Assembly: GCA_002839355.1 (NCBI GenBank) | Contig: PGXW01000019.1 | Span: forward strand, 1 to 64,000 | From: Spirochaetae bacterium HGW-Spirochaetae-2 | GTDB taxonomy: Bacteria; Spirochaetota; Spirochaetia; Sphaerochaetales; Sphaerochaetaceae | Reading direction: 5' to 3' | DNA length: 64,000 bases | Part shown: positions 9,693 to 32,020 of the stretch, in pieces | Position numbering within the stretch: the stretch's first letter is position 1 | Layout: every line of letters starts with the position of its first letter | Translations under genes and position numbers: made by a program | Notes under the pieces: model-generated | The model's input: the letters and a program-made list of their open reading frames with translations, nothing else | The model's database searches: none | What the model was told of the DNA's origin: nothing

Positions 9693-11951
9693 CTATTGCA
9701 GGAAATCCTTCTGTTCTAGGGCGAGTCCGTGGATGAATGAGCCGTTCTTGTTCTTCCTACGTTGGAATCCCGCAGACTCCAAAGCCGCGTAAAAGTCAGC
9801 CGTACCCCGTATGAACTCTCCGTTGCTTGAACAATAATTGCGGTACCCTTGGTATAAGATTCCGGAGGGTTGTTCGAGGGTCGGTCCAAATTTACAGCAC
9901 TCATCCAAAAAACTTCCCATCCAGTCGTTGTTTTCCCGGTACTTGTCGATCGCATGTTGTACGCATGGTGGAACCTTCAGGTGATAGTCCCTCGCTATGA
10001 CCTCTCTCGCCCCCTCTATGATCCATGCCATGATGGCCTCGCCTGCATGCTCGACTAGATGATCGGCATAGTTCTTTACATCCCCGCTGCCACTGATGTG
10101 TGCGTTGAAGGGAATTACGATTAGCCTTCTCCAGGTTCCGGCATCACAGGCACCAACCTTTGGTAGATGATTCGTATAGAGCACCACCGTATGGGTGGGA
10201 CGGAACTTGAAGGGATCTTTGTACTTCTTTTCCGCTTCGATCTCGTCGGTGCTGCTGAGGATCTTAGCGGTTGAGGTGTTTAGCCTGGTACCTTCCTCCA
10301 GCTCAGAGGCGATCACCAGACGCTTGCCCTTGAGCTCGGCGATCTCGGGCTTGATGTTGCGCTTGCACCCCGCTGTCAACGTATCGGCCGATATGGCACC
10401 GCTGTAACTTCCCATCACCCGGGAGATAGAATTCCAGAAGGTGGACTTGCCGTTGCTTCCTCCGCCATAGGCGATGATGAGCGCCTCGAGGCACACCTTT
10501 CCGATTGCGGCGATACCAACGATCTGCTGCACATATTCGATCAGTTCCTTGTCATTGCAAAAGAACAGATCCAGAGCTTTGTTCCATGCATCCTTTCCCT
10601 TCTCACCGGGTGCACAGGTTGTTTGCTTGGTGATCAGATCCTCGGCACAAGGTTGTCGTTTGCTGGAAAGCCCCTGTTGGAGGTCGTAGGTAGAGCCGGG
10701 TGTGTTGAGTAAAAATGGGTCGCGATCCAGATCCTGGACTTCGATGAGTACCATGGGCTTGGCTGCCTGCAGGGCTCCCATCACATACTTCATGTCACGC
10801 CGCTTCATGACGAAGGCCTTGTAGGCCATCGCTGCCAGATAGCGCTTGTAGGCTATAAGAGCATCTCCGGAAAGACCCGCCTCGAATTTCTTCCCTCCTA
10901 AGATGATCTCACCTTCATCGTAACCAAGACCCGCCAGATCCTTCAGCGAGGTGCTCACCGCATCGATGGCATCCTCGAGTTGCAGGTCCAAAAACTCCTC
11001 GGCCGCTCCCAGCGCCATTTGGCGCGACTCGACCCAGTACTCGCCGTTGTACCTGATGTAATCGGTACCGTCCGAGTATTTGAGCTCACCACCATATTCG
11101 CGCACGAGCACCTTGGCTTGGCCGATGTCGGAGTAGTCCGAGGGCTTAAGCGACTCCCTGGAGAATTCCGCATTGTAGGTATCCGGATCGACATACCCGT
11201 CCTGCATGTGCACCCGCTGTGCGAATTTCACCGCACTGTACCAGATCGTATCCAGCTCATCCTCTTGTAGTGGAGGATCACATTTGGCTGCTTCCTGCAC
11301 GAAGATCCCATGCGCACGATCCGACACGCCATAGCGCTTGAGCACCTTGCCCGCAAAACGCGAGAGCGTGTTGTTGCGCATCCCCTCTGGAATCACTTCC
11401 CGGTTCGTCTCTGTCGTAGTCTCTTGGGGAACCACAATCGCCTCGTCGATGTGCATCCACCCTTCATTCCAGATGACGTCGCCTTGGTTTGCACCAAAGA
11501 TGAATCGGGCTGCATCCAGAGCGTTCGCATCGAAGAACGGATAATGAGCATGTATCGATCGCTTGAGGTTCGCATACACGTTCGCTTCGGTGATCTCACG
11601 TATCGGGAAGTAGACATGGAAGCGTGGCCTTGCGCCTTTACTTTCCTTGGGCAGATTGTGGTTCCGGCTTGTAGCAAGGGCAAAGGATACCTCCGACAGT
11701 TCTTCGGCGAGTTGTTCGGGGGAGATCCAATCATCCGGGTTGTCCGAGTGGTCGTTGTCGCAATCCATCACCACGACGGTGGAGGACACGAAGTTTCCGA
11801 CACTACGGTAGCCGTCCTTGTATTCGGCGCATACGTGGTCGAACCGTATCGCTTCTTCAAATGCTTCTTTCGTGGACGCATCGATATGGTTGCGATAATG
11901 GCAGTTCTTCGCGTTTCCCGTGCAATCGGCACTATAGAGGTTGATCCTCAT
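9693..11951 (-). CDS. Phage D5-like primase-helicase
   Basis: A 752-residue replication protein. The N-terminal half resembles the primase region of D5/VirE-type proteins (VMDCDNDHSDNPDDW is a likely metal-binding site; RPRFHVYFPI follows). The C-terminal half is an SF3-type helicase with Walker A GGGSNGKST (Lys at about 502), an acidic stretch in IASELEEGTRL and the sensor VVLYTNHLPKV, matching the phage/P4 primase C-terminal family. The start at 11951 is chosen because GGGAGG lies 8 bases upstream. It probably starts and unwinds the phage replication fork with the polymerase encoded divergently. Confidence 0.9.
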   Translation of the reverse strand: MRINLYSADCTGNAKNCHYRNHIDASTKEAFEEAIRFDHVCAEYKDGYRSVGNFVSSTVVVMDCDNDHSDNPDDWISPEQLAEELSEVSFALATSRNHNLPKESKGARPRFHVYFPIREITEANVYANLKRSIHAHYPFFDANALDAARFIFGANQGDVIWNEGWMHIDEAIVVPQETTTETNREVIPEGMRNNTLSRFAGKVLKRYGVSDRAHGIFVQEAAKCDPPLQEDELDTIWYSAVKFAQRVHMQDGYVDPDTYNAEFSRESLKPSDYSDIGQAKVLVREYGGELKYSDGTDYIRYNGEYWVESRQMALGAAEEFLDLQLEDAIDAVSTSLKDLAGLGYDEGEIILGGKKFEAGLSGDALIAYKRYLAAMAYKAFVMKRRDMKYVMGALQAAKPMVLIEVQDLDRDPFLLNTPGSTYDLQQGLSSKRQPCAEDLITKQTTCAPGEKGKDAWNKALDLFFCNDKELIEYVQQIVGIAAIGKVCLEALIIAYGGGSNGKSTFWNSISRVMGSYSGAISADTLTAGCKRNIKPEIAELKGKRLVIASELEEGTRLNTSTAKILSSTDEIEAEKKYKDPFKFRPTHTVVLYTNHLPKVGACDAGTWRRLIVIPFNAHISGSGDVKNYADHLVEHAGEAIMAWIIEGAREVIARDYHLKVPPCVQHAIDKYRENNDWMGSFLDECCKFGPTLEQPSGILYQGYRNYCSSNGEFIRGTADFYAALESAGFQRRKNKNGSFIHGLALEQKDFLQ

Positions 11952-12379
11952 CCCTGTACCTCCCGGCAATCCGAATCGAAGTACCGCAGGCGATACCCCT
12001 TGCGACGGGCATAGGCGATCTCGCCCGCCATTCCGTTCGATACCCCGTGTCCTGCGAACACCCACACCTCGGCGCACTTGCCCATGAGGATGTTGCCGAA
12101 GCGCAACGCGAGCTCACGCTCGGCGGGATCGTCGTCGTACATGAACTGCGGGTACAGCAGGTGCACCGTCAGGGGGATGCAGCCCGAGTCCACCGCGAAT
12201 CGGCTGTACAGCCGTGCCCGCTCGACATTTGTCCCGATGTCGCCCGCGTATGGCGAGCAGATGTATACGATGGGACGGAAGGATCGGATTGCCTTTCGCT
12301 CCTCTTGTTCCATCGCCTTGAATGCCTCATAGGGCGTCGGATCCGGATACCCCTGTGCATTCAGTCGTTCTCGATTCAT
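11948..12379 (-). CDS. DUF4406/DUF7768-like nucleoside-deoxyribosyltransferase fold protein
   Basis: A 143-residue protein with the pattern VYICSPYAGDIGTNVERARL near the N-terminus and CAEVWVFAGHGVSNGMAGEI, as in DUF4406/DUF7768 proteins, which share the nucleoside 2-deoxyribosyltransferase fold. Its activity is not known. The start at 12379 is preceded by an ideal AAGGAGG. It is the first gene of the minus-strand operon and overlaps the primase gene by 4 bases. Confidence 0.75.
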   Translation of the reverse strand: MNRERLNAQGYPDPTPYEAFKAMEQEERKAIRSFRPIVYICSPYAGDIGTNVERARLYSRFAVDSGCIPLTVHLLYPQFMYDDDPAERELALRFGNILMGKCAEVWVFAGHGVSNGMAGEIAYARRKGYRLRYFDSDCREVQG

Positions 12380-12807: not shown

Positions 12808-13210
12808 ATCGCTGGAAGCATTGCTGGGTCGTCTGGATGGGAAGGAGTTCGGGAAGGCCGAGCCCAAACCGGAGGCAAAACCACTGACGCTGGTGGAAGT
12901 TCGTGCGGTCCTGGCCGGCAAGTCCCGTGATGGGCATACCGAGAACATCAGGGCGTTGTTGGAAAAATATGGGGCGTCCAAGCTCTCGGAGATCGACCCT
13001 TCGCGGTACCAGGACCTTATGGACGAGGCGCTGTGCCTGGGTGCGACCAGGGGGGATATCGAACAAGCCCTTTCGGAGAAGGAGAAGGAAGGCGATGGTG
13101 ATTCTTTCAGGGCGATCTTCGAACACCACGGCTCGACGTGCCTCGAGGACCTGAGGGTGGAATACTACCCGTCGTTCCTGCGCGACATCAGGAGGCTTGG
13201 TAATGGCTAA
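12746..13210 (+). CDS. Phage protein of the type labelled rRNA biogenesis protein rrp5
   Basis: A 154-residue protein with a helical N-terminus (TRACIAEAMTILNTASRSLE) and the conserved block VRAVLAGKSRDGHTENIRAL followed by KYGASKLSEIDPSRYQDLMD. Proteins with this block occur in Firmicutes-type phages directly before DUF2800 genes, often under the misleading name rrp5. They may bind DNA or act in recombination; this is unproven. AGGAGGA precedes the ATG. Confidence 0.7.
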   Translation: MREETRACIAEAMTILNTASRSLEALLGRLDGKEFGKAEPKPEAKPLTLVEVRAVLAGKSRDGHTENIRALLEKYGASKLSEIDPSRYQDLMDEALCLGATRGDIEQALSEKEKEGDGDSFRAIFEHHGSTCLEDLRVEYYPSFLRDIRRLGNG

Positions 13211-14327
13211 GCATGCCCTGCTCTCGCCATCGTCGGCCGCCCGATGGACCGCTTGCCCGCCGTCCGCACGACTGTGCGAACACATCGAAGAGGGGCCGAG
13301 CCTCTTCGCCGAGGAGGGTACCGAGGCTCATTCGCTCTGCGAATACAAGGTCAAGCTCGCACTCGGCCTCGAGGCGGAAGACCCGAGGCCCACCCTGGGC
13401 TTTTACAACGAGCAGATGGAAGACTGCGCGGAAGAGTACACGGCTTTTGTGCTGGATGCGTTGCAACAGGAAAAGGATGCCAGAAGGGATCCGCTCGTCC
13501 TACTCGAGCAGAAGGTGGATATAAGTTCGTATGTGCCCCAGTGCTCGGGGACCGCCGACTGCATCATCGTGTCCGATGCCCACCTGCACGTCATCGACTT
13601 CAAGTACGGACAAGGGGTGCCGGTCTCGGCCGAGCGCAACACGCAGATGATGCTCTATGCGCTGGGGGCGATCGGGATGTTCGCCCCGCTGTATGAGGTC
13701 CAGAAGGTCAGCATGACCGTGTTCCAGCCGCGCCTGGCGAACGTGGGCACCTTCACGATGGGCTCCGATGAGCTGCTCGAATGGGCCGGGTCTTATGTGA
13801 AACCCCGAGCCGAGCTCGCATTCCAAGGCGAGGGGGAGTTCTGCTCGGGGCCCCACTGCCGGTTCTGCAAGGTGAGGGCCACCTGCCGCAAGCGTGCCGA
13901 GGCGAACCTGGATCTTGACCGATACGAGTTCGCCAAACCCGTGCTTCTGGGAGACGACGAGGTCGCCGCGATCCTGACCCAAGCCGACGAGCTAGCCGCC
14001 TGGGTGGGGGACATCAAGTCATATGCCCTATCGGTATTGGCAAGGGGCGGAACGATCGAAGGCTTCAAGCTGGTGGAGGGTCGGTCCATTCGACGGTACA
14101 CCGACGAGGCCTCTGCAGCCGATGCGGTACGCGACGCAGGCTTCGACCCGTATGAGCACAAGGTGTTGGGTATCACGGCAATGACCGAATTGTTGGGAAG
14201 GACACGTTTCAACGAGATCTTGGGTTCGCATGTATGCAAGCCCAAAGGCAAACCGACGCTCGTGCCACAAGGCGACAAACGGCCGGCGATCACGATCAAC
14301 GATTTCAATGACATGGAGGAGAAGTAG
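13203..14327 (+). CDS. DUF2800 PD-(D/E)XK nuclease, Cas4/AddB-like
   Basis: A 374-residue protein starting MAKHALLSPSSAARWTACPP as in DUF2800. The nuclease core is seen in YVPQCSGTADCIIV and HLHVIDFKYGQGVPV (Asp, then Asp-x-Lys), with the motif IV region NTQMMLYALGA. Four cysteines in CSGPHCRFCKVRATC (from residue 214) probably hold an iron-sulfur cluster, as in Cas4 and AddB. It likely acts in phage recombination with the DUF2815 protein. The ATG at 13203 has GGAGG 7 bases upstream; the TTG at 13197 is too close to it. Confidence 0.88.
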   Translation: MAKHALLSPSSAARWTACPPSARLCEHIEEGPSLFAEEGTEAHSLCEYKVKLALGLEAEDPRPTLGFYNEQMEDCAEEYTAFVLDALQQEKDARRDPLVLLEQKVDISSYVPQCSGTADCIIVSDAHLHVIDFKYGQGVPVSAERNTQMMLYALGAIGMFAPLYEVQKVSMTVFQPRLANVGTFTMGSDELLEWAGSYVKPRAELAFQGEGEFCSGPHCRFCKVRATCRKRAEANLDLDRYEFAKPVLLGDDEVAAILTQADELAAWVGDIKSYALSVLARGGTIEGFKLVEGRSIRRYTDEASAADAVRDAGFDPYEHKVLGITAMTELLGRTRFNEILGSHVCKPKGKPTLVPQGDKRPAITINDFNDMEEK

Positions 14328-14888: not shown

Positions 14889-14988
14889 TTGAAGATGGGG
14901 AGGGCGGTGGTTGCCACTGCCGTCCTTCCATTACACCAAGGATTTTTTCAAGACACCGAGATTGGAAACTGACCAGAAGGATTTGCCC

Positions 14989-17900
14989 ATGCCCAATATA
15001 CACACTCTCTCTTGCGATATAGAGACGTACTCGTCCGTCAACCTTGCCAAGAGTGGGGTTTTTCGGTATTGCGAGGCCGAAGATTTCGAGATCCTCCTGT
15101 TTGGCTATAGCGTCAACGGTGGACCGGTGCAGGTCGTCGATCTCGCCCGGGGAGAACAGATATCCAAGGACATTCTCGAAGCATTCACCGATGCCAGCGT
15201 GGTCAAGTGGGCGTTCAACGCTGCCTTCGAGCGAATCTGCCTCTCACGCTATCTGGGACTGCCAGCAGGCACATACCTGGATCCATCATCCTGGCGATGT
15301 ACGATGATCTGGTCGGCGTATCTGGGGCTGCCGTTGTCGCTGATGGGCGTGGGAGCGGTGCTGGGCCTCGGGAAGCAGAAGCTCTCCGAGGGCAAGGACC
15401 TTATCCGCTACTTCTGCATTCCGTGTGCCCCCACGATCACCAATGGAGGCCGTACGAGGAACAAATCTGGTGACGCTGTGGACAAATGGGATCAATTCAT
15501 CGAGTACAACAAGCGTGATGTCGAGGTCGAACTCGCCATCCACCGGCGCTTGGGGCGGTTTTCGGTTCCCGATGCCATCTGGGATGAGTACCATCTCGAC
15601 CAACGCATCAACGACCGGGGCGTGTTGATCGACCGGGAACTGGTGAGAAGAGCCATCGAAATGGATAGTCTTTCTCGGCAAGAGCTGGTGTCCAGGATGA
15701 AGGAGCTCACCGACCTGGAGAATCCCAATTCGGTACCCCAAGTAAAGACCTGGCTAGCCGACAATGGACTCGAGATAGACTCCCTTGGCAAGAAGGATGT
15801 GATCTCCGCTTTGGATGGTGCTCCGCGTGAGATCAGGGAAGTGCTCGAGCTCAGGCTGCAGCTTGCCAAGTCGTCGGTGAGGAAGTACCAGGCGATGGAG
15901 CATGCTGCCTGCTATGATGATCGTGCTCGGGGGATGTTCCAGTTCTATGGAGCGAATCGTACCGGAAGATGGTCAGGGAGGCTGATTCAAGCCCAAAATC
16001 TCAAGCGCAACAGCATCGAGGACCTCGCCGTCGCCAGGGAACTAGTCAAAGGTGGTGATTACGAAGCGGTGAAGATGCTCTTTGGCGATGTGCCCGATAC
16101 GCTCTCCCAGTTGGTCCGCACCGCATTCATCCCCCGAAAAGGCCATCGGTTCATCGTATCGGACTTCTCGGCGATAGAAGCAAGGGTGCTCTCTTGGCTC
16201 GCTGGGGAGACGTGGCGCATGGATATCTTCGCCGAGGATGGGGACATCTACTGTGCCACAGCCTCCCGCATGTTCCACTGCGTGGTCACCAAGCATGGGG
16301 AGAACGGACACCTCAGGCAAAAGGGCAAGCAGGCCGAGCTCGCCTGCATCGCAGAAGGCCAGCTGGTGCTCACCGATCAAGGTCTTGTGCCGATCGAGGG
16401 CGTGACGACCGATCATTTGCTGTGGGATGGAGAGGATTGGGTATCGCATGGGGGTGTTGTCTGTAATGGGATCCGGAGGGTAATTACCTACGGAGGACTT
16501 ACCGCGACAGCCGACCATCTCGTCTGGGTCGAGGGGATGGGTAAGCCGGTACGGCTCGGGCTTGCGGCTAAGTGCACAGCGCAATTGGTGCAGACTGGCG
16601 ATGGGGAAAAGGCGATAGCCATTGGTGGACATAAGGGAGAGCGAAGGCTTTCTATGGTCCGCGACGTCCTGAAAACGACAGGAACATGCAAGGTATACGA
16701 CATCCTCAATGCCGGAACACATCATCGTTTTACCGTATCGGGGGTCCTCGTGCACAACTGCGGCTATGGAGGATCGGTGGGAGCGCTCAAGGCCATGGGA
16801 GCGCTCGAATCCGGCATGACGGAGAACGAGCTCAAACCCTTGGTGGATGCCTGGCGCCAGTCCAATCCGAACATTGTCCGGCTCTGGTGGGATGTTGACA
16901 AGGCAGCGAAGGAAGCGGTGAAGGAAAAAACCACCACCGATACGCATGGAATCAGATTCTCCTATGAGAGTGGCTTTCTTTTCATCACCTTGCCCTCTGG
17001 CAGAAGTCTCGCGTATGTGAAGCCTCGCATCGGTACCAACGAATTCGGTAGCGATTGCGTAACCTACGAGGGGGTGGGAGGAACGAAGAAATGGGAACGC
17101 ATTGATACCTACGGACCCAAGCTAGTCGAGAACTGTCTTGCTGGGGGTACATTGGTTCTTGCCGAACGGGGGTTCGTTCCCATCCAGGAGATTCAAAGGC
17201 AAGACAGGGTCTGGGACGGAACGGAATGGGTTTCCCACGAAGGACTTATCGACAAAGGCATCCAGGAGACGGTCCGCATCGGGCAAGCCCTTGAGATGAC
17301 TGCGAATCATAAGATTTTGACGACAGAAGGATGGAGGGAGTGTGGCACGACTGAAGGACTTGAGTGGGCGGACGTTCAACTACCTGACGGTTATCAGCAG
17401 GGCGGAGAATACGGCCCAGGGAAAAGCGCAATGGCTGTGCCGGTGCTGGTGCGGGAATCTGAAGGTAATCGCCTCCGCAGACCTGCAGAAAAAAAAGTAT
17501 CCGGTGAAATCGTGCGGATGCATGACCAAGATTTTGATAGCGAGGAATCATACCCGGCATGGAATGAGCCATCATCCGGCATTCGGAGTGTGGCACTCGA
17601 TGAAGCAGCGTTGTACGGATCCGAAACACCGTGCGTGGAAGAACTACGGGGGAAGGGGAATACGGGTGTGCGATGCCTGGCTGCACAGTTTCGAGCAGTT
17701 CTGGGAAGACATGGGGCCAACCTACCAGCGAGGATTGGATTTGGACAGAAAGGACAACAATCAAGGCTACGATGCACAGAACTGTCGTTGGGTGGAACGA
17801 AAGGTCAACTGCAGAAACAGGAGGTCGAATCGTGTGATAGAGACTCCATTCGGAGATATGACGGTTTCTGCCCTTTCGGAATTGACCGGAATCGGTGTGA

Positions 17901-18282
17901 CAACAATTCATTATCGCATGAACAACAATTGGCCGATAGAATTGCTGTGCACTCCACCGGATGCAAGAAACAGGTGTACGACCTTGCGAATTGCGGACCG
18001 AGACACCGTTTCGCCGTCTGGGATATCCGAGCAGGAAAAGCCCGCATAGTGAGCAACTGCACTCAGGCGATCAGCCGCGACCTGCTGTGCCATGCCATGC
18101 GGCATCTCGAGCCGCTCGGCTGCCGCATCGTGATGCACATCCATGACGAGGTGGTCATTGAAGCACCGAACGACATTGAGGTCGACGAAGTCGGTAGGCT
18201 CATGAGCATCGTTCCGTCATGGGCTGATGGCTTGATGCTGAGTGCGGCGGGGTATGAGGCGGAGTTTTATATGAAGGATTGA
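14989..18282 (+). CDS. Phage family A DNA polymerase with two inteins
   Basis: A 1097-residue precursor. Removing two inteins (138 and 308 residues) leaves 651, normal for this polymerase family. The 3'-5' exonuclease domain opens with LSCDIETYSS. Polymerase motif A is in FIVSDFSAIEARVLSWLAGE, motif B in RQKGKQAELA/CGYGG and motif C in VMHIHDEVVIEAP. Intein 1 splits motif B; intein 2 splits VEN/CTQAISRDLL. The start at 14989 is chosen because AAGGAT lies upstream and the exonuclease motif begins seven codons later. It ends the rightward phage operon and should copy the genome with the D5 primase-helicase. Splicing is needed for activity since both inserts interrupt the catalytic core. Confidence 0.93.
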   Translation: MPNIHTLSCDIETYSSVNLAKSGVFRYCEAEDFEILLFGYSVNGGPVQVVDLARGEQISKDILEAFTDASVVKWAFNAAFERICLSRYLGLPAGTYLDPSSWRCTMIWSAYLGLPLSLMGVGAVLGLGKQKLSEGKDLIRYFCIPCAPTITNGGRTRNKSGDAVDKWDQFIEYNKRDVEVELAIHRRLGRFSVPDAIWDEYHLDQRINDRGVLIDRELVRRAIEMDSLSRQELVSRMKELTDLENPNSVPQVKTWLADNGLEIDSLGKKDVISALDGAPREIREVLELRLQLAKSSVRKYQAMEHAACYDDRARGMFQFYGANRTGRWSGRLIQAQNLKRNSIEDLAVARELVKGGDYEAVKMLFGDVPDTLSQLVRTAFIPRKGHRFIVSDFSAIEARVLSWLAGETWRMDIFAEDGDIYCATASRMFHCVVTKHGENGHLRQKGKQAELACIAEGQLVLTDQGLVPIEGVTTDHLLWDGEDWVSHGGVVCNGIRRVITYGGLTATADHLVWVEGMGKPVRLGLAAKCTAQLVQTGDGEKAIAIGGHKGERRLSMVRDVLKTTGTCKVYDILNAGTHHRFTVSGVLVHNCGYGGSVGALKAMGALESGMTENELKPLVDAWRQSNPNIVRLWWDVDKAAKEAVKEKTTTDTHGIRFSYESGFLFITLPSGRSLAYVKPRIGTNEFGSDCVTYEGVGGTKKWERIDTYGPKLVENCLAGGTLVLAERGFVPIQEIQRQDRVWDGTEWVSHEGLIDKGIQETVRIGQALEMTANHKILTTEGWRECGTTEGLEWADVQLPDGYQQGGEYGPGKSAMAVPVLVRESEGNRLRRPAEKKVSGEIVRMHDQDFDSEESYPAWNEPSSGIRSVALDEAALYGSETPCVEELRGKGNTGVRCLAAQFRAVLGRHGANLPARIGFGQKGQQSRLRCTELSLGGTKGQLQKQEVESCDRDSIRRYDGFCPFGIDRNRCDNNSLSHEQQLADRIAVHSTGCKKQVYDLANCGPRHRFAVWDIRAGKARIVSNCTQAISRDLLCHAMRHLEPLGCRIVMHIHDEVVIEAPNDIEVDEVGRLMSIVPSWADGLMLSAAGYEAEFYMKD
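16345..16758 (+). other. Intein 1: minimal intein in polymerase motif B
   Basis: A 138-residue in-frame intein. It begins with Cys (CIAEGQLVLTDQGLVPIEGV, block A), has block B GLTATADHLVW with the TxxH pattern, block F CKVYDILNAGTHHRF and ends VLVHN before a Cys, the standard His-Asn/Cys junction. The segment between blocks B and F is about 60 residues and contains no endonuclease, so this is a mini-intein that cannot home by itself. All key splicing residues are present. Confidence 0.92.
17134..18057 (+). other. Intein 2: large intein with an embedded out-of-frame gene
   Basis: A 308-residue in-frame intein. Block A is CLAGGTLVLAERGFVPIQEI, block B is EMTANHKILTTEGW, block F is KKQVYDLANCGPRHRF, and the end is ARIVSN before Cys. 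Ser replaces the usual penultimate His. Between blocks B and F about 210 codons read as low-pattern sequence in this frame because they also encode an HNH endonuclease in another frame (17342-18049). The intein frame has no stop throughout, as the polymerase requires. Blocks A and B resemble intein 1 (shared WDG, WVSH). Confidence 0.9.
17342..18049 (+). CDS. HNH homing endonuclease nested out of frame inside intein 2
   Basis: A 235-residue protein with a GTG start, one base shifted from the polymerase frame. It has the full layout of phage HNH homing enzymes: N-terminal MARLKDLSGRTFNYLTVI, a zinc-binding region (CRCWCGN, KSCGC), the block HGMSHHPAFGVWHSMKQRC, NYGGRGIRVCDAWL, and the HNH core LDLDRKDNNQGYDAQNCRWV. 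The C-terminal NUMOD-like helix-turn-helix is MTVSALSELTGIGVTTIHY. The recognisable domains end near residue 210, where intein block F begins; the last 25 residues are the intein tail in the wrong frame. AAGGA and GGAGG lie 10 and 4 bases before the GTG. It probably cuts intein-less polymerase genes to spread intein 2. Confidence 0.88.
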   Translation: MARLKDLSGRTFNYLTVISRAENTAQGKAQWLCRCWCGNLKVIASADLQKKKYPVKSCGCMTKILIARNHTRHGMSHHPAFGVWHSMKQRCTDPKHRAWKNYGGRGIRVCDAWLHSFEQFWEDMGPTYQRGLDLDRKDNNQGYDAQNCRWVERKVNCRNRRSNRVIETPFGDMTVSALSELTGIGVTTIHYRMNNNWPIELLCTPPDARNRCTTLRIADRDTVSPSGISEQEKPA

Positions 18283-18339
18283 TTATGAAAATACGCAATA
18301 ATGAAGGATATATGGATAGAACACCTTATGAGGCCATCT

Positions 18340-18609
18340 TTACTTTCTTGCTTGAAGGTCTCTTGCCAATTCATAATAACGGACTATATGCTCCAATGCT
18401 TTGCTTGCATTCCTATCACTTTCGAAGTATGCCAACAGCAATTCGAAGGATATCTGCCTTTCCTGACATAGTAAATCCATGATCCCGTCATAGAGCCTGT
18501 TAGCCATCTCATCGTCGAAATCCCCGATATCAATTCTCTGGGTGATGTATTCGGCGAATGGCCGGTCGGTGATGATCCTGTGAAGCAATTCTCTTTCGAT
18601 AGGATTCAT
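18340..18609 (-). CDS. Small protein resembling the DnaG helicase-binding domain
   Basis: An 89-residue, mostly helical protein. ERELLHRIITDRPFAEYI, IDIGDFDDEMANRLYDGI and ISFELLLAYFESDRN follow the pattern of the C-terminal domain of bacterial primase DnaG, which binds DnaB helicase. No primase core is present, so it could be a stand-alone decoy or loader that captures host helicase, or a dnaG fragment. It lies convergent to the polymerase gene. No strong ribosome site is visible before the ATG, so the start is uncertain. The 286 bases to its right (18610-18895) are A/T-rich without a gene. Confidence 0.5.
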   Translation of the reverse strand: MNPIERELLHRIITDRPFAEYITQRIDIGDFDDEMANRLYDGIMDLLCQERQISFELLLAYFESDRNASKALEHIVRYYELARDLQARK

Positions 18610-18895
18610 AAGAATACAATAGAGAATATTTTAGTTCCAAACAATCCTCTGGGATTGATTTATATCTGTTTGGGTAGAACGGGGAAGAATCGGAGTTTTA
18701 TATCTAGGGTTGAGTTATGAAACAGATACCTATTAATGAACTATAGTAATAAAACTAGATGAGTGAAGAATTATATAGTTCGTGTACATAATTGAACTTG
18801 ACCTATAATATTTGTTGCACTAGCATAAATCTATCACTGAGATTTTATCATTGTATTACGTTTCCCAACATTATGAACGTTATGGAGTCCGCAGT

Positions 18896-20908
18896 ATGAG
18901 TAACGTAAACATCAAGAGAGCAATTGAGAATATTCGAGAGAGCACTTCTGTTTATACTCCAATTATTGAGATTGTTATCAATGCAATTCAGGCAATTGAA
19001 GAAACGAGAAGAGTAGATGGGGTTATTTGGATCAGAGTAATAAGAAGCAAACAAGAAGAGCTTGATGGATCTGAACAAAGCATAACCGGCTTCATCATAG
19101 AGGATAATGGCATTGGTTTTACCCAGACTCATCGCGATTCGTTTGACACACTTTTTTCTGACCTCAAGGCTGAATCAGGTGGAAAGGGTTTTGGAAGGTT
19201 TATCTGCTTAAAGTATTTCAGTCACCTGCATATAGGGAGTTATTTCGAGGAGAGTGGTAAAATCAAGTATAGATCTTTTTCTATGGGGATGGATCAAGAC
19301 ATTATTGTTAATGAAAAAGTTGTTTCGATAGAAGAAGATAAGCCGTTGTCAACGACAATTAAGTTGCTGGATCTCAAAAAAGGCAATTATGAGAAACGAC
19401 TCTCTACATTCTCTTGGAATATCATCGAGAGAATTCTCCCGTATTTTATAACTGATGATTATCAATGCCCACAAATATTTCTTGCCGAGGAAGATCGGAG
19501 TAATGCGATTTGTTTAAATCGGTATCTTGAAAATTTTGATACACCGGAAAGGATACAGGAAATTTCAAGTCAGAATACCATCATCACTGTTAAGGGGGGT
19601 GGTCAAAGTTTTGACTTCCAGATAAGGCTTTTCAAGTTTTATTCACCAAAAAACCAAAAGAGTCGAGTGAGCCTTGTGGCGAATAAAAGAGAAGTCACTG
19701 TCACTCCCTTACACAAGTATATCCCTGAATTCGAAGAAGAGTTCTTTGAGATCTCTGAAGATGATATAGGTAGACACGAAAGAAATTATATTGTGAAAGC
19801 TTATGTCCTTGGTAATTATCTTGATGAGAATGTATCTCTTGAACGGGGTGGCTTTGAGTTTAATCAGATGTATGCGAGTCTGAGCCATCCGGTGTCTCAA
19901 TCGGACATCGAGAGCGAGGCTGCGGAGATGGCAAAAGGAATAATGGGAGACGAGATATGTACGCGACAAGAAAAAAAGCGAAACCTCGTAAGAACCTATG
20001 TTGATTTGAAGGCACCATGGCACAAAGATCTGGTCAGCAATGTCAACTTAACTAATCTTCCATGTAATCCTTCCGATCAAGAAATTGAGATCAAACTTCA
20101 AACTGAAAAGTTTTCTCGAGAACTAGAAATTAAAAAGGATGTTGCAAATGTTCTGAATAAGGCCACATTAGATGGCGTCCAAGAGAAGGTCTTGGAGATC
20201 ATTAGCAAGGTGTCTGGGAATAGTAAAAATGATCTAATACACTATGTTGCGTTGAGAAAAATTGTCCTCGAATTACTTCAGAAAAGCCTTGAGAGAGATG
20301 ATGAAGGTAAATATTCTTCCGAAGGTTTGGTTCATGATATCATTTTTCCGAGAAGGGGGGATACAGAGACTACCTCCTTCGCTGATCATAATTTATGGTT
20401 GTTGGATGAGCGGCTGAATTTTTCATGGTTTGTGTCCTCAGATAAAACCCTTAATGGGGAATTGAGTGATCGACCAGATTTATTGATTTATAATAATCGT
20501 GTTGCCTTCCGCGGGGAGAATGAGTCAAGTAACCCAATCACAATCTTTGAGTTTAAAAGACCTTTCCGAGACGACTTCGCCAATCCCAGCTCAAAAGATG
20601 ATCCTGTCCAACAAATAGTTCGGTATGTGAACGCAATTCGTGATGGCAAGTGTCAAACTCCAGAAGGTAGAAAAATCAATGTCAATTCAAATACTCCTTT
20701 CTATGGTTACGTCATATGTGATCTAACAACAAAGGTTGAGAAATGGCTTGAGAGAGAGAAAGACTTCAAGCCGATGCCCGATAGACTCGGGTGGTTTCAT
20801 TGGATGGATAACATTAATCTATATCTTGAGGTAATCAGTTGGGAAAAGGTTGTAAAGGATGCAGACATGAGAAATCGAATATTTTTTAATAAACTTGGTC
20901 TGGCATAG
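18896..20908 (+). CDS. GHKL ATPase with C-terminal PD-(D/E)XK-like nuclease domain
   Basis: A 670-residue protein. The N-terminus is a GHKL (Hsp90/MutL/histidine kinase-type) ATP site: EIVINA (25-30), EDNGIGF (69-75) and GGKGFGR (95-101). A long helical middle follows. The C-terminus has a nuclease-like signature: RPDLLI (526-531) and TIFEFKRP (Glu552-x-Lys554), then QQIVRYV. The combination suggests an ATP-gated DNA-cutting enzyme, a layout seen among phage-defence proteins; I cannot name the system. The ATG at 18896 has GGAG 8 bases upstream. It is transcribed alone and is A/T-richer than the phage genes. Confidence 0.7.
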   Translation: MSNVNIKRAIENIRESTSVYTPIIEIVINAIQAIEETRRVDGVIWIRVIRSKQEELDGSEQSITGFIIEDNGIGFTQTHRDSFDTLFSDLKAESGGKGFGRFICLKYFSHLHIGSYFEESGKIKYRSFSMGMDQDIIVNEKVVSIEEDKPLSTTIKLLDLKKGNYEKRLSTFSWNIIERILPYFITDDYQCPQIFLAEEDRSNAICLNRYLENFDTPERIQEISSQNTIITVKGGGQSFDFQIRLFKFYSPKNQKSRVSLVANKREVTVTPLHKYIPEFEEEFFEISEDDIGRHERNYIVKAYVLGNYLDENVSLERGGFEFNQMYASLSHPVSQSDIESEAAEMAKGIMGDEICTRQEKKRNLVRTYVDLKAPWHKDLVSNVNLTNLPCNPSDQEIEIKLQTEKFSRELEIKKDVANVLNKATLDGVQEKVLEIISKVSGNSKNDLIHYVALRKIVLELLQKSLERDDEGKYSSEGLVHDIIFPRRGDTETTSFADHNLWLLDERLNFSWFVSSDKTLNGELSDRPDLLIYNNRVAFRGENESSNPITIFEFKRPFRDDFANPSSKDDPVQQIVRYVNAIRDGKCQTPEGRKINVNSNTPFYGYVICDLTTKVEKWLEREKDFKPMPDRLGWFHWMDNINLYLEVISWEKVVKDADMRNRIFFNKLGLA

Positions 20909-20958
20909 GGTTTATGGTCATCTGAACTGAGTTATTTTTATTGGAGTGCAAATCAAAA

Positions 20959-20987
20959 TTGGATGGAAAGAAAATTTTTCCATCCAA
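20959..20987 (-). terminator. Hairpin terminator between convergent genes
   Basis: An 11-base perfect inverted repeat, TTGGATGGAAA (20959-20969) and its complement (20977-20987), with a 7-base loop. On the minus strand it is followed by TTTTGATTT, so it mainly ends transcription from the sigma-like gene at 21501; it may also stop the GHKL gene. Confidence 0.65.
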
Positions 20988-21009
20988 CAATTAGAATATT
21001 AATTCCCTC

Positions 21010-21501
21010 TCATCCCTCATAGAACAACCGGAAATCCTCTTTGATCTTCTTGAGCCTCCGATGGACGGTATCCTGGGATTTGCCGATGATCGATGCGATC
21101 TCGTCCTGGGACTTTCCCTCATCATACAGCTCGTAGATCCTTCTCAGCTCTCCGGTGAGCGCCTCCAGGAAAGCTTCAGCCTTCTGCCTGAATTCCTTCC
21201 TCTGCAGAACAACCTCAGGATCGTACGACTGATGGCGTTCGCTGGCCATTACCTCAAGATCGTAATGCAGCTGGGCGAGGTCCTCCTGCTCAGGATCCCG
21301 TGACCAATCGCAGATGCCACAGTCCCCTCCGCATCGCCACCAGTGGTGGCAGGCGCATTGGTGATGCCGCTTGGCGAACGCATAGATGCGGTTGATGGGA
21401 CGATAATACTCTCGGAATTGTTCTTCGGAGACCGGTATCCTCTCTTCTGTGATCGGATCGAAAATGTAGAAGTCCCTGCTTTGATTCTCTGTATTTGCCA
21501 T
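21010..21501 (-). CDS. Sigma-70 region 4-like phage regulator
   Basis: A 163-residue protein. The N-terminal half has a possible zinc site rich in His and Cys (HHQCACHHWWRCGGDCGIC). The C-terminal half carries a sigma region 4-type helix-turn-helix (YDEGKSQDEIASIIGKSQDT, then VHRRLKKIKEDF). Such proteins occur in Firmicutes-type prophages and conjugative elements and probably recruit RNA polymerase or bind DNA. GAGGAGG lies before the ATG. It is flanked by terminators on both sides, so it is its own unit. Confidence 0.72.
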   Translation of the reverse strand: MANTENQSRDFYIFDPITEERIPVSEEQFREYYRPINRIYAFAKRHHQCACHHWWRCGGDCGICDWSRDPEQEDLAQLHYDLEVMASERHQSYDPEVVLQRKEFRQKAEAFLEALTGELRRIYELYDEGKSQDEIASIIGKSQDTVHRRLKKIKEDFRLFYEG

Positions 21502-22248: not shown

Positions 22249-22968
22249 TCAGGTGGGTAGATGGTTCAGTGAGACCAGGCGCACCCTTGCGGCTTCCTCG
22301 GAGACATTGAACACCTCGACCATGGTCTGGATCAGCTCATAATGCCAGAATCGGCTTCCCTTGGGCTCGATCAGGTTTCGCAGCCGCTTGACCGCAATCC
22401 TTGGCATCAGAAGGACCGATGACAGGTAATTGGCCTGCCACTCGAGCCAGGCTTCACCTTGCAGGCGCTTGCCATTCACATCCACACCGCTGAGATCTGG
22501 GAAGGTAGGTTTTGAGTAGATACCACCAAAGTTGTCATGTAGGCTGGCGATCTGGGCCTTGCGCTGATAATACTCGGGATGGACCAGTCCGTGCGATGCC
22601 TCATGTCCTACGGTGAAACGCTCGCGGTGGATGAGATTGGGATTGTCGGCAAGTGTTCCCTCGATGATGATGGTGTTCTTCTTCACCGAGAGGAACTCGG
22701 CCCGATTTAACTCAGGGATATATACGGGTAGGGTATCGGTATCCTCGAACACCGTGATACCCAGATACACCTGGTTATTGGAAAGATACTGGTATTCGAA
22801 ATTGAATCCCATGTATCCGGTGACGAGCCTGTCGATATCGGTGGGTTGTGGTTCCAGCAGGATGGTCGGGGAAAAATCGCGCAGTACTCGTTCTCCATAG
22901 GTTTCCAGTTGACTTTTGCTGAGATGTGGTATGCCATTGGCGTCGAGTCTACTTGCGCATTTCATCAT
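22249..22968 (-). CDS. ImmA/IrrE-family metallopeptidase
   Basis: A 239-residue protein with a zinc-peptidase motif in FTVGHEASHGLVHPEYY (HExxH) and a downstream WLEWQANYLSSVLLMPR block that supplies the third ligand and is typical of ImmA/IrrE. These proteases cut a partner XRE repressor after DNA damage or another signal and so induce the mobile element. The gene follows the XRE gene by 6 bases, the usual ImmR-ImmA order. It probably controls induction of this prophage or island. Confidence 0.88.
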   Translation of the reverse strand: MMKCASRLDANGIPHLSKSQLETYGERVLRDFSPTILLEPQPTDIDRLVTGYMGFNFEYQYLSNNQVYLGITVFEDTDTLPVYIPELNRAEFLSVKKNTIIIEGTLADNPNLIHRERFTVGHEASHGLVHPEYYQRKAQIASLHDNFGGIYSKPTFPDLSGVDVNGKRLQGEAWLEWQANYLSSVLLMPRIAVKRLRNLIEPKGSRFWHYELIQTMVEVFNVSEEAARVRLVSLNHLPT

Positions 22969-24872: not shown

Positions 24873-25096
24873 GATGGTTGTGGAAATTATTGGATAATTT
24901 TTACGCTTGTGTTGTTTGATCGCAATGTGTACTTGGGCTATTTTTCTTGCAATTATCCCGAGCTAAGGGGTATCCTACATACAAAATATGCACACAGAAA
25001 CCTTTTCGCGAGGACGTCTATTTGGTCATTGAGTTGGTAAGTTCCAGCTTATCGACAACAGCCTTGAATAAGGTGGATTTTCACTGGAGGATTGGG

Positions 25097-27667
25097 ATGA
25101 ACAAGCAACAGTTGGCTTCAAGAATTTGGGAAGCCGCAAATCGGATGCGCTCAAAGATCGAAGCCCATGAGTATAAGGATTATATCCTCGGTTTAATTTT
25201 TTACAAATTCTTATCTGATAAAGAAATGAAGTTTTTTTTATACAATCATTTTAAAAAAGAAGACATACAGGCACTTTCAGAAGCTGAGATTGATGATGTG
25301 AAATTCATCAAGGAAAATGTAGGCTACTTCATCTCTTACGACCATCTCTTCTCAACCTGGATAGAGATGGGCTCGGACTTCGATGTCTCCAATGTCAGGG
25401 ATGCGCTTTCTGCGTTCAACCGAAATATCAACCCATCACACAAGAAAGTGTTCGAGAAGATCTTTGATACGCTGCAGACCGGCTTGAGCAAACTTGGTGA
25501 CAGCTCTAGCTCTCAGACCAAGGCGATACGGGATCTTATCCAATTGATCAAGGTTATCCCAATGGACGGTAGACAGAGCTATGATGTGTTGGGATTCATC
25601 TACGAATACCTGATCAGCAAGTTTGCGGCAAATGCCGGCAAGAAGGCGGGCGAATTCTATACCCCCCACGAGGTGTCGTTCTTGATGTCAGAGATTGTGG
25701 CCGATCATCTGAAGGGCGAGAAGGAGATCAAGATCTATGATCCCACCAGCGGATCGGGATCATTGCTCATCAATATTGGGCGTTCGGTTTCCAAACATAT
25801 CGATAATGAGAACAGCATCAAGTATTACGCCCAGGAGCTTAAAGAAAATACGTACAACCTCACCCGCATGAACATGGTCATGCGCGGGATTCTTCCCGAC
25901 AATATCGTCACGCGCAATGGTGATACGCTCGAGGATGACTGGCCGTATTTTGAGGACAACGATCCGGTTAATACCTACGATCCACTCTATGTGGATGCGG
26001 TGGTCTCCAATCCTCCCTATTCCCAGGCGTGGGATCCTTCCAATAAGGAATCGGACCCCCGGTACGCCCGCTTCGGTCTTGCCCCCAAGAGTAAGGCCGA
26101 CTATGCCTTTCTTCTGCATGACCTCTACCATCTGAAACCTGATGGGATTATGACTATTGTCCTCCCCCATGGAGTGCTGTTCCGTGGTGGAGAGGAGGAG
26201 AGGATCAGGAAGAATCTGATTGAGTACAACCATATTGATGCGGTCATAGGACTTCCCGCCAACATTTTCTTTGGGACTGGAATACCCACTATCATCATGG
26301 TATTGAAGATGAATAGGAAAACGGATGATGTGCTGATCGTCGATGCATCCAAAGGTTTCACCAAGGTTGGAAAGAACAATATGCTCAGAGCTTCCGATAT
26401 CAAGAAAATTGTTGATGTTGTCACGGAGCGGAAAAGTCTGCCCAAGTTTGCTAGGTTGGTTAACAAAGATGAGATACGCCTGAATGAATACAATCTGAAC
26501 ATTCCAAGATATGTTGACTCTTCCGAGGCATCTGAGAAATGGGACATCTACTCATTGATGCTTGGGGGCATTCCTGAAAATGAGATTGAAGACCTGCATG
26601 AATATTGGAAAGCTTTTCCTGGTCTTGAGGATAAATTGTTTATCAAAGGTGAGGGTTCATACAGAACTTTGGCTGTGGATGATATACGGGAGGCTGTGAA
26701 TGCTCATCCTAGCGTTATTAAATTTGTCGAGAGTTTTAAAAGCTCCTTTGAAAGCTTTGGAGATAGGCTCAGGAATGATCTGATTGATGGGTTTGAGAGT
26801 TTAAAAATCACAAACGAAGAGTTGCTTCTCAGTGATGACATCTTTGTACGTCTTGAAGGTCTTCCACTGGTCGATAAATATGATGTCTATCAATTGTTGG
26901 ATGATGAATGGACAAACATAGCGATAGATCTGGAGATATTGCAGACGGAAGGGTTTGATGCATCCAAGAAGGTGGAACCAAGGATGGTCTCCAAGAAAGA
27001 TGAAGAGGTTCAAGAGGGATGGCGGGGGCGGGTGATACCGTTTGATCTGGTTGAGAATACTCTGCTCAAAGATGAGCATGACCACCTTCTTGCGATTGAG
27101 GATAGGGTATCTGAGATCAATGCAACCCATGCAGAGATATTGGATGGTTTGTCTGAGGAAGAAAAAGAATCAGATGGGCTCAATGAAACGAAAGATTCTT
27201 TCATTTCATCCTGGGTTGTCAAGGAAGTAAAAAAATTGATGGCTGATAAAAAGAAGGGAATTTTAATACCTGAAGATTCATTTGAAGAAAAGATCATGCT
27301 TGTCGATGAGTTGATGGCAGAAGAGAAACAATTGAAATCAAAGCTAAAGAAGGAGACTGTAGCGCTTCATAACAAAACCAAGAAAGTAATCGAGGGTTTG
27401 TCTTATGAGGATGCAAGATCATTGCTTGAGGCCAAATGGATCGAACCACTCCTGCTTAGCCTCTATTCAATTCCCAAGACGATCATTGAAGTGTTGATCA
27501 CGAAGGTTGTTGCCCTAGCAGAAAAGTACAAGACGACCTTCTCGGAAATTGAGACTGAATTGCATGAAACTGAAATCGCCATTGGATCCATGATTCAAGA
27601 GCTTACGGGTAACTCTCATGATTTAAAAGGGCTCGAAGAATTCATGTCGTTGTTGGGAGCGGAGTAA
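25097..27667 (+). CDS. hsdM: Type I restriction-modification methyltransferase subunit
   Basis: An 856-residue HsdM. The N-terminal helical domain begins MNKQQLASRIWEAANRMRSK; the catalytic domain has the SAM-binding DPTSGSGSL (215-223) and adenine-N6 motif NPPY (305-308), followed by the family block LPHGVLFRGGEEERIRKNLI. It is longer than the usual 500-530 residues because of a C-terminal helical extension of about 300 residues (KKLMADKKKGILIPEDSFEE and similar). The ATG at 25097 has TGGAGG 6 bases upstream; the open frame extends 50 codons further without support. First gene of hsdM-hsdS-hsdR. Confidence 0.92.
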   Translation: MNKQQLASRIWEAANRMRSKIEAHEYKDYILGLIFYKFLSDKEMKFFLYNHFKKEDIQALSEAEIDDVKFIKENVGYFISYDHLFSTWIEMGSDFDVSNVRDALSAFNRNINPSHKKVFEKIFDTLQTGLSKLGDSSSSQTKAIRDLIQLIKVIPMDGRQSYDVLGFIYEYLISKFAANAGKKAGEFYTPHEVSFLMSEIVADHLKGEKEIKIYDPTSGSGSLLINIGRSVSKHIDNENSIKYYAQELKENTYNLTRMNMVMRGILPDNIVTRNGDTLEDDWPYFEDNDPVNTYDPLYVDAVVSNPPYSQAWDPSNKESDPRYARFGLAPKSKADYAFLLHDLYHLKPDGIMTIVLPHGVLFRGGEEERIRKNLIEYNHIDAVIGLPANIFFGTGIPTIIMVLKMNRKTDDVLIVDASKGFTKVGKNNMLRASDIKKIVDVVTERKSLPKFARLVNKDEIRLNEYNLNIPRYVDSSEASEKWDIYSLMLGGIPENEIEDLHEYWKAFPGLEDKLFIKGEGSYRTLAVDDIREAVNAHPSVIKFVESFKSSFESFGDRLRNDLIDGFESLKITNEELLLSDDIFVRLEGLPLVDKYDVYQLLDDEWTNIAIDLEILQTEGFDASKKVEPRMVSKKDEEVQEGWRGRVIPFDLVENTLLKDEHDHLLAIEDRVSEINATHAEILDGLSEEEKESDGLNETKDSFISSWVVKEVKKLMADKKKGILIPEDSFEEKIMLVDELMAEEKQLKSKLKKETVALHNKTKKVIEGLSYEDARSLLEAKWIEPLLLSLYSIPKTIIEVLITKVVALAEKYKTTFSEIETELHETEIAIGSMIQELTGNSHDLKGLEEFMSLLGAE

Positions 27668-27668
27668 T

Positions 27669-28871
27669 ATGCCAGAGGATAAAAAAAAGCCCGCAATTCG
27701 GTTTGTCAGATTTGATGATGCTTGGGAACAGCGTAAGATTGATAAATTATTAACTGAAGTTATACGGCCTGTTAAAATGATGGATGATAAAGAATATGAA
27801 CTTGTTACTGTTAAGCGAAGAAATGAGGGGGTCACATCTCGTGGGAAGCTAAAAGGTATAGACATTCTTGTTAAAACTTACTTTGAAGTCAAAGCGGGAG
27901 ACTACCTAATATCTAAGCGACAAGTTGTGCATGGCGCTAATGGAATTGTCCCAAAAAACCTTGACGGGGCAGTAGTCTCAAACGAATACCTAGTTCTTAC
28001 TGACAACGATGGAATGTCTGTTGAATTTCTTGCAATATTATCAAAGCACCCAGAGATGTATAAAAAGTTCTTTTTAAGTTCGTACGGAATTGATATTGAG
28101 AAACTTGTTTTTGATGTTGATGATTGGAAAAAGAGAACAATAAATATTCCGACAATAGCTGAGCAAAAGAAAATCTGTTTGTTTTTTAAAACTATAGAAA
28201 CCTTAATCACCCTTCATCAGCATAAGTATGACAAACTGGTTTCTGTTAAGAGATCCATGCTCGATAAAATGTTTCCGAAAAATGGTTCGAACATTCCAGA
28301 GATTAGGTTTGCTGGATTTACTGACCCTTGGGAACAGCGTAAGTTGAGCGATGTCGCAGAATTCAATCCAAAAGGAACGCTCCCAGACGAATTTGAATAT
28401 GTTGATCTAGAGTCAGTTGTAGGAACAGAACTCATCAGCCATAGACGTGAAACTATTCATACGGCACCCTCAAGGGCGCAAAGAGTCGCAAAGTATGGCG
28501 ATATCTTCTATCAAACAGTTCGACCTTATCAAAAGAATAATTATTTATTTAACAGTAAAGAAAATGACTATGTTTTCTCTACTGGGTATGCACAGCTGAG
28601 ACCCCAAATCAAAGGTTCTTTATTATTCTGCATACTGCAAGAAGATGGTTTTGTGAAGGATGTTCTTGATAGATGTACTGGCACTAGTTATCCTGCTATT
28701 ACTTCCACGAGTCTCGAAGATATCGCAATTAAGATACCAGTCAATCCGGTCGAACAAGAGAAAATCGGGAGCTTTTTCAAACACATGGACAACCTTATCA
28801 CCCTTCATCAGCGTAAGCTTGAAAAGCTCAAGAATGTAAAAAAAGCAATGCTCGATAAAATGTTTTTGTAA
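27669..28871 (+). CDS. hsdS: Type I restriction-modification specificity subunit
   Basis: A 400-residue HsdS built of two halves. Each half opens with a similar phrase (FDDAWEQRKIDKLL and FTDPWEQRKLSDVAEF), carries a different target-recognition domain, and closes with a conserved helix (LITLHQHKYDKLVSVKRSML and LITLHQRKLEKLKNVKKAML). The two recognition domains read the two halves of a split DNA site and the repeats set the spacing. It starts one base after hsdM and ends 14 bases before hsdR. Both domains look intact. Confidence 0.92.
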   Translation: MPEDKKKPAIRFVRFDDAWEQRKIDKLLTEVIRPVKMMDDKEYELVTVKRRNEGVTSRGKLKGIDILVKTYFEVKAGDYLISKRQVVHGANGIVPKNLDGAVVSNEYLVLTDNDGMSVEFLAILSKHPEMYKKFFLSSYGIDIEKLVFDVDDWKKRTINIPTIAEQKKICLFFKTIETLITLHQHKYDKLVSVKRSMLDKMFPKNGSNIPEIRFAGFTDPWEQRKLSDVAEFNPKGTLPDEFEYVDLESVVGTELISHRRETIHTAPSRAQRVAKYGDIFYQTVRPYQKNNYLFNSKENDYVFSTGYAQLRPQIKGSLLFCILQEDGFVKDVLDRCTGTSYPAITSTSLEDIAIKIPVNPVEQEKIGSFFKHMDNLITLHQRKLEKLKNVKKAMLDKMFL

Positions 28872-28885
28872 AGGCGGTTATAGAT

Positions 28886-31800: not shown

Positions 31801-32020
31801 GGATGAAGAAAAGTTAAGAAGACTCATGAAATTCCGCACAACAGCAATAAATATTAATGAGTACGGGCGATTCGAAGATTTGATAAGTACCGTAGATAGG
31901 AAGAAAGCAAGGGAATATTTCGAGAGTGTGGAAAAAGCGAAGATTAAGGAATACAAAGTCAATGCGAAAATTGACAAGCTCATGAGGGAGTTTATCATTA
32001 AAGGTGGGTTTGAGGTTTAG
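28886..32020 (+). CDS. hsdR: Type I restriction endonuclease/translocase subunit
   Basis: A 1044-residue HsdR, full length. The N-terminal nuclease domain has Asp148 (RRGDLMLLINGMPV) and Glu162-Leu-Lys164 (HIELKKSG) of the PD-(D/E)XK fold. The motor has Walker A TTGSGKT (Lys306) and DEAH at 409-412, with GFTGTPI as motif III and FSRTNRIFG as motif VI. It pulls DNA toward the bound complex and cuts at a distance. With hsdM and hsdS it makes a complete and apparently working type I system. Confidence 0.94.
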   Translation: MPQATTVFTKESEFEEALIEILSRKGWEQQVIKHPTEKDLVENWRRILNNNNMIRDRLNGYPLTDSEMQQILEQIVALRTPLKLNGFINGKTVSIKRDNPDDIEHLGKEISLKIYDRNEIAAGQSRYQIALQPDLPSREAIANDRRGDLMLLINGMPVIHIELKKSGISVSQAYNQIEKYAYEGVFSGLFSLIQVFVAMEPNETVYFANPGPEGKFVKDYYFHWADFNNEPINGWQDIASSFLSIPMAHQLIGFYTVADGSDGILKVMRSYQYYAASAISDRVSKALWDGREMRGGYIWHTTGSGKTMTSFKSAQLIANSKDADKVVFLMDRIELGTQSLKEYRAFANETEDVQATEDTYVLISRLKSTDPADTLIVTSIQKMSRINDDGIGARDLCKINSKRMVIIVDEAHRSTFGEMLLTIKETFPRAMFFGFTGTPILEDNQKKKSTTSTVFGDELHRYSIADGIRDRNVLGFDPYKVLTFRDKDLRKSVALDKAKAATEADAVMNPKKSRIYYHYMNDVPMVGYSTADGRRIKGIEDYIPHSQYLFSEHQKAVVTDILENWLTLSHGYKFHAIFATSSINEAITYYKLLKPAESYVKVTCLFDPGIDNNGGAEFKEEGLIEIIKDYNARYGQDFTLSNYGKFKKDIANRLAHKDPYRLIERTPEKQIDILIVVDQMLTGFDSKWLNTLYLDKELRYENIIQAFSRTNRIFGQDKPFGTIRYYRKPHTMEKNIEKAVKLYSGDRPFDLFVEKLDKNLDKLNSIYTEIFDLFINAGIPDREKLPDRNSEKAKFASLFKKLNDYLEAARVQGFAWEKSMYTFGESDDKRTIKVAFDENEYLILAQRYKELFNGDGGGGANPDDIPYLIDGNLTEIDTGRIDREYMDSRFEKYLKALNLGDEKEKQKTLEDLHKSFAALTQEEQKYAALFLHDIQRGSVAIEAGKSFRDYVVEYQARIKNDQIHKLALVFGLDEEKLRRLMKFRTTAININEYGRFEDLISTVDRKKAREYFESVEKAKIKEYKVNAKIDKLMREFIIKGGFEV

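Follow-up and report, generated by a model that had tools for sequence, protein, structure and literature searches.

A predicted stand-alone protein of the DnaB N-terminal/DnaG helicase-binding superfamily encoded beside a phage DNA polymerase gene

The stretch of DNA analysed here (the window, 64,000 nucleotides (nt) long) carries on its minus strand, at 18340–18609, an open reading frame of 89 codons (ORF89) whose ATG lies at 18609, whose stop codon ends at 18340 and whose predicted product is a stand-alone protein resembling the DnaB N-terminal/DnaG helicase-binding superfamily. The preliminary description of this DNA had placed an 89-residue ORF at exactly these positions; its strand is minus. 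The frame is open over 96 codons, continuing for 7 more codons upstream of the ATG until a stop is reached. The gene for a phage family-A DNA polymerase (polA; 14911–18282, plus strand), which bears intein-like insertions, converges on ORF89, and a 685-codon gene for a GHKL-type (HATPase_c) ATPase (18851–20908, plus) diverges from it. Further to the right lie a sigma-70 region-4-like ORF (21010–21501, minus) and a Peptidase_M78 (IrrE-like) protein (22249–22968, minus), and on the far side of polA are DUF2800 (13197–14327) and a D5-type protein (9696–12077, minus; PF08706, E = 1e-17), in line with the earlier statement that the phage has its own D5 primase-helicase. ORF89 contains no primase, zinc or polymerase domain, in agreement with the earlier view of a domain standing without an attached primase, and a RecA-like ATPase domain is absent as well, ORF89 being only 89 amino acids (aa) long and its neighbours being polA and the GHKL ATPase gene.

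Several features of the surroundings were recorded in passing. The polA ORF has two insertions, at about residues 479–617 and 742–1044, which in our own reading look like inteins; both are absent from the polA genes of the syntenic loci L065 and L074, and the first together with part of the second is found in that of L072. A 235-codon ORF (17342–18049, plus) overlaps the second insertion in another frame, so that both frames are open for approximately 700 nt; Pfam returned nothing significant for this ORF, which we take to have an HNH-like look. At 24947–32020, type I restriction-modification-like genes adjoin the phage genes; HsdM was identified by Pfam, and the 400-aa and 1044-aa ORFs beside it are presumably HsdS and HsdR. 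Judging by the neighbourhood of dnaG and rpoD, the host appears to be a spirochaete. By eye, no Shine–Dalgarno-like motif precedes the ATG of ORF89; such motifs are present at several neighbours (the sigma-like ORF, DUF2815 and an SNF2-like gene), and the hsdM-like and hsdR-like neighbours also have no obvious one. Promoter-like matches in the ORF89 region numbered four against 2.9 expected from shuffles, that is, about chance, and one terminator-like hairpin was found on the plus strand at 18642–18657 (0.3 expected).

We compared the region from polA to the sigma-like ORF with the syntenic loci L065 (from IMG/VR), L074 (genome G098) and L072 (genome G124), counting L065 and L074 as one region because their alignment figures were the same for nearly all window proteins tested. 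With L072, DNA similarity is lost at the polA stop codon (18282) and picks up again at 18791, and similarity to L065/L074 runs to 18337, through the start of a small post-polA gene (18279–18337, plus; MKIRNNEGYMDRTPYEAI...), and ends just before the 3′ end of ORF89. The breaks at 18337 and 18791 indicate that the approximately 450-bp segment bearing ORF89 (18338–18790), which has no DNA similarity to L065/L074 or L072, is not common to the syntenic regions; no ORF89 homologue was found in them (at E ≤ 0.01 for L072). By position, ORF89 is probably phage cargo. The interval between polA and the sigma-like ORF (18282–21010) is a variable cargo spot, occupied by the GHKL ATPase in the window and in L072, where the same gene (74% identity) sits in the same place, and by other genes, one with a weak PDDEXK_4 match, in L065, to which L074 appears identical. 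The small post-polA gene carries a GYMDRTPYEAI motif, and its frame ends soon after in L065/L074 too.

Searches for relatives of ORF89 yielded three further copies. In the family (139 genomes, the same number as in the order), two genomes matched at E ≤ 0.01, namely the genome of the window itself and G001, of the same genus, which retains a broken fragment over about codons 5–38 that has lost its start codon and soon meets a stop. A search of genome contigs gave 23 pattern-matching stretches, which led to two copies. The first, L006, lies on a 3.1-kb metagenome contig labelled Clostridiaceae and is an intact ORF of 88 aa, 66% identical to ORF89, adjoining two ORFs that we read as transposase-like and as an L17-like ribosomal protein. 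The second, L007, lies on a contig labelled Methanomethylovorans, where a homologue (83%) of the sigma-like ORF of the window precedes it upstream; it is similar over approximately 40 codons and is frameshifted by a 1-base deletion. Two of the three other copies, L007 and G001, are thus broken, and L006 is the only other intact-looking one. Outside the ORF89 stretch, no window ORF matched the L006 contig, and the 16 kb surrounding the G001 fragment had no match at E ≤ 1e-6 to a window ORF of at least 60 codons. The core common to the copies (18424–18633, minus) begins approximately 24 nt before the ATG and in L006 reaches about codon 62, similarity ending at about codon 38–41 in L007 and G001; beyond it, the flanks of the four copies have no DNA similarity to each other. 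The 24 or so nt upstream of the ATG are conserved in all four copies and are similar in frame too.

Elsewhere the searches were negative. Neither ORF89 nor the two-sequence alignment found a homologue among IMG/VR proteins, and a degenerate DNA pattern gave no matches in IMG/VR; these scans need an identical short stretch of peptide or DNA as a seed and can therefore overlook distant relatives. No convincing homologue emerged from the phage search (11 records, all with E = 5) or the plasmid search (one match, E = 0.7), and the best of the PDB sequences reached E = 0.13, with unrelated names. In a DNA search of the 139 family genomes, with five candidates scored in most genomes, the matches listed besides those in the own genome and G001 spanned at most approximately 50 bases (best E = 6e-4) and were read as chance.

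The substitution pattern between the copies revealed that the ORF89 protein has been under protein-level selection and that the ORF is more than a chance frame. Between the window and L006, substitutions at codon positions 1, 2 and 3 numbered 10, 3 and 23 over 62 codons (pN/pS = 0.14); in all six pairs among the four copies pN/pS was 0.14–0.25 and the third position took the largest share of substitutions, the weakest pair being that of the window and L007 (6, 3 and 8 over 30 codons). Because the ORFs of both the window and L006 are intact and differ with a strong third-position bias, selection on the protein lasted for some time after their split. We considered a gene on the opposite strand, of which ORF89 would be a shadow or a spurious ORF, since a plus-strand frame over the same DNA (18475–18717) also aligns to L006 and G001, and to G001 over a greater length (58 aa, E = 6e-12) than does the ORF89 frame (47 aa, E = 2e-8). 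In this plus-strand frame, however, which lies codon-on-codon opposite ORF89, the first position is the most substituted and pN/pS is 0.7–1.8 in all six pairs; the remaining two opposite frames gave 0.28–0.98 and 1.0–4.3, and both contain stops in the window copy. The substitution pattern thus weakens the opposite-strand explanation to the point that we regard it as very improbable.

To which domain family does the protein belong? According to a review, the folds of the DnaG helicase-binding domain (HBD) and the DnaB N-terminal domain (NTD) can be highly similar, and the two domains bind each other (PMC6163395); another paper describes the NTD of Helicobacter pylori DnaB and how it interacts with the C-terminal domain of DnaG (PMC2761005). 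The Pfam model DnaB_N (PF00772) matched ORF89 over residues 4–77 with E = 4e-4 and 20.7 bits, just below the cut-off of 23, and matched the L006 homologue over residues 3–82 with 23.5 bits, just above it. It was the sole Pfam match listed for ORF89, no DnaG model appearing at E up to 10, and NCBIfam and PHROGs gave weak pointers to DnaB helicases. A six-frame PF00772 search of the 3.6-Mb genome at E ≤ 10 found two places, the chromosomal DnaB (111.9 bits) and ORF89 (19.2 bits, E = 0.003).

We built DnaG-C profiles from 28 domains (DnaG was found in 28 of the 31 genomes searched, and the C-terminal ends from G001 and the own genome look identical) and a DnaB-N profile from 30 domains. ORF89 scored 17.6 bits on the DnaG-C1 profile and 12.5 bits on the DnaB-N profile, neither score being reached by any of 5,000 shuffles; on the longer DnaG-C profile its 16.0 bits were exceeded by one shuffle in 5,000. 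The L006 protein leans the other way, with 16.1 bits on DnaB-N against 13.4 on DnaG-C1 (0 of 5,000 shuffles for either). On the DnaG-C1 profile, ORF89 outscores each of the 30 true DnaB-N domains (best 16.4), and its DnaB-N score is exceeded by one of the 28 DnaG-C1 domains (19.4; next 8.4). Profile–profile alignment with hhalign gave a probability of 88% and P = 3e-6 for DnaG-C1 (24% identity over 58 columns), P = 1e-5 for the longer DnaG-C profile, and a probability of 47% and P = 2e-4 for DnaB-N.

In the reverse test, a search of 394 genomes of the class with the two-sequence profile (E ≤ 1) gave 81 rows, 79 of them besides the own genome and G001. We examined 49 of these, made up of the 18 loci that were returned and all 31 remaining rows whose open frame was at least 350 aa, the other 30 rows being shorter frames. 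Among the 49, four fell in DnaG genes (in the C1 region and in register), one fell in the N-terminal domain of a DnaB gene and 44 were in neither; the two lowest E-values of the 79 were 0.0045 (DnaG) and 0.012 (DnaB). PF00772 also matches the DnaG frame of a relative, G148 (E = 1e-7), so the ambiguity between DnaB-N and DnaG-C is inherent. Membership of ORF89 in the combined DnaB-NTD/DnaG-HBD superfamily is well supported by these sequence comparisons, which do not separate the two. The DnaG-C resemblance put forward in the preliminary description therefore holds beyond chance but is not specific to DnaG, the DnaB-N profile matching as well; as for identity with DnaG-C, the C1 profile leans towards it, whereas L006 passes the Pfam cut-off for DnaB_N.

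Structure prediction had been suggested as a check in the preliminary description. Two AlphaFold runs on two-sequence alignments gave almost wholly helical models with a mean pLDDT of 62 and 55, too low for fold assignment. When the model with pLDDT 62 was compared with known structures by VIA-align (97 chains aligned), the best Z, 5.5, belonged to a kinetochore complex, and chains of DnaB or DnaG did not appear among the matches listed, a comparison for which the model is too uncertain. The first 62 or so residues of ORF89 are conserved and the last 27 poorly so; the tails of ORF89 and L006 resemble each other weakly above chance (34 of 5,000 shuffles reach the alignment score), and the part aligned to DnaG-C1 ends at residue 65–66 of 89. 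A DnaB 'IVR' helix in the tail was looked for against DnaB residues 75–190 and rejected, the score being reached by 58 of 500 shuffles for ORF89 and 381 of 500 for L006.

We tentatively prefer, with somewhat less than even confidence, to see in ORF89 a genuine sporadic accessory (cargo) gene for a lone DnaB-NTD/DnaG-HBD domain that, if made, would most likely occupy the contact surface of host DnaB and DnaG. The ORF could instead be a relic: either the 5′ remnant of a DnaB-like helicase gene or a piece of DnaG-C, scattered by insertion sequences and recombination, that is still open but has no present function. Such an origin would fit the unrelated flanks of the four copies, the onset of similarity just before the ATG and its end at codon 38–41 or 62, the lost ATG and early stop of G001, the deletion in L007, the transposase-like ORF (in our reading) beside L006, the location of the ORF89 3′ end where similarity in the small post-polA gene breaks off and the lack, by eye, of a Shine–Dalgarno-like motif. 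Against it stand the intact ORFs of the window and L006 (89 and 88 aa) with the strong third-position bias between them, and the fact that no full-length parent gene with the ORF89 N-terminus was seen in the family-genome, genome-contig, IMG/VR and 394-genome searches. Given that copies are broken, that a Shine–Dalgarno-like motif is missing, that the tail is poorly conserved and that ORF89 sits at a breakpoint, we consider a relic nearly as likely as an accessory gene, and ORF89 may already be decaying. The lack of a homologue in the syntenic regions examined, the two broken copies among three and the lack of matches to other window ORFs in the 16 kb around the G001 fragment and on the L006 contig argue against seeing ORF89 simply as a phage replication gene. 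If ORF89 is a relic, it is a reminder that an unbroken short frame that matches a domain and lies in a phage cargo spot may not be functional.

It is rather improbable that ORF89 encodes a real small protein of the same fold that has some other partner, such as a replication initiator of a phage or plasmid, or a part of the GHKL-ATPase cargo. The superfamily match does not fix the partner and ORF89 adjoins the GHKL-ATPase gene, but it is oriented away from that gene. The occurrence in L072 of the ATPase (74%) with no ORF89 homologue (E ≤ 0.01) indicates that the two are separable, and for this reason we disfavour a two-gene system of ORF89 and the ATPase.

If ORF89 is an accessory gene and its product is made, the protein would most simply act by occupying the site where the N-terminal collar of the host DnaB hexamer meets the C-terminal domain of host DnaG. 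It could mimic DnaG-C and dock on DnaB, or mimic DnaB-NTD and dock on DnaG or on adjacent DnaB subunits. Priming at the host fork would then be dampened or redirected while the phage replicates with its own D5 protein and PolA. The capture or blocking of host DnaB by the putative ORF89 product, as proposed in the preliminary description, is possible on this scheme. A broader proposal, which we consider unlikely, is that ORF89 represents a mobile free-standing replisome-contact domain, carried as prophage cargo, that jams or re-targets the host DnaB–DnaG interface, with the L073 protein described below as a second case. On that broader proposal, ORF89 would specify an inhibitor that works by domain mimicry and derives from the docking fold of the helicase or primase itself. 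The helicase–primase interface belongs to a machinery considered as an antibacterial target, and if the ORF89 protein binds DnaB or DnaG, it would offer a compact natural probe of this interface and a case in which a phage or mobile element has turned a docking domain of the host into a decoy. A narrow literature search found, under the terms used, no paper on stand-alone DnaB N-terminal domains in connection with phage or on DnaB-binding phage proteins, and none of the titles listed by broader searches names such a lone domain. In kind, ORF89 belongs to a known domain superfamily, of which it is a free-standing member.

Among known proteins, the DnaB N-terminal domain is a close counterpart, and for both intact copies Pfam lists no match besides PF00772; unlike DnaB, ORF89 has no RecA-like helicase domain or linker, and it departs from a canonical DnaB_N domain in falling below the curated cut-off that L006 barely exceeds and in the poor conservation of residues after about 62. 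In profile–profile alignment ORF89 matches best the C1 subdomain of the DnaG helicase-binding domain (P16/HBD), as represented by the host and its relatives, and the pattern D-x-x-D-E-x-A-x-x-L-Y is common to ORF89 and host DnaG, whereas ORF89 has only approximately 25 residues after the aligned part, in the place where a DnaG-HBD has its C2 hairpin. A free-standing DnaB_N protein of 116 aa is encoded at L073 (G124:C20, 8493–8843, minus; PF00772, E = 1e-11; PF08278 DnaG_DnaB_bind, E = 6e-4), which establishes that lone domains of the DnaB_N kind occur in the group. This protein, too, is a single free-standing domain that starts a few residues before an ...IER... motif, but it is longer than ORF89, nearer to canonical DnaB_N and differently located, and since it was absent from the ORF89 search results it is at most a distant cousin; it had no relative in IMG/VR and one record in the phage search (E = 8e-4). 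SPP1 G39P is a phage protein that acts on host helicase loading. Another phage protein is reported to hijack DnaI of Staphylococcus aureus (PMC4887207). With such proteins the ORF89 product would have in common the general approach of targeting the helicase pathway of the host; their targets and folds are others.
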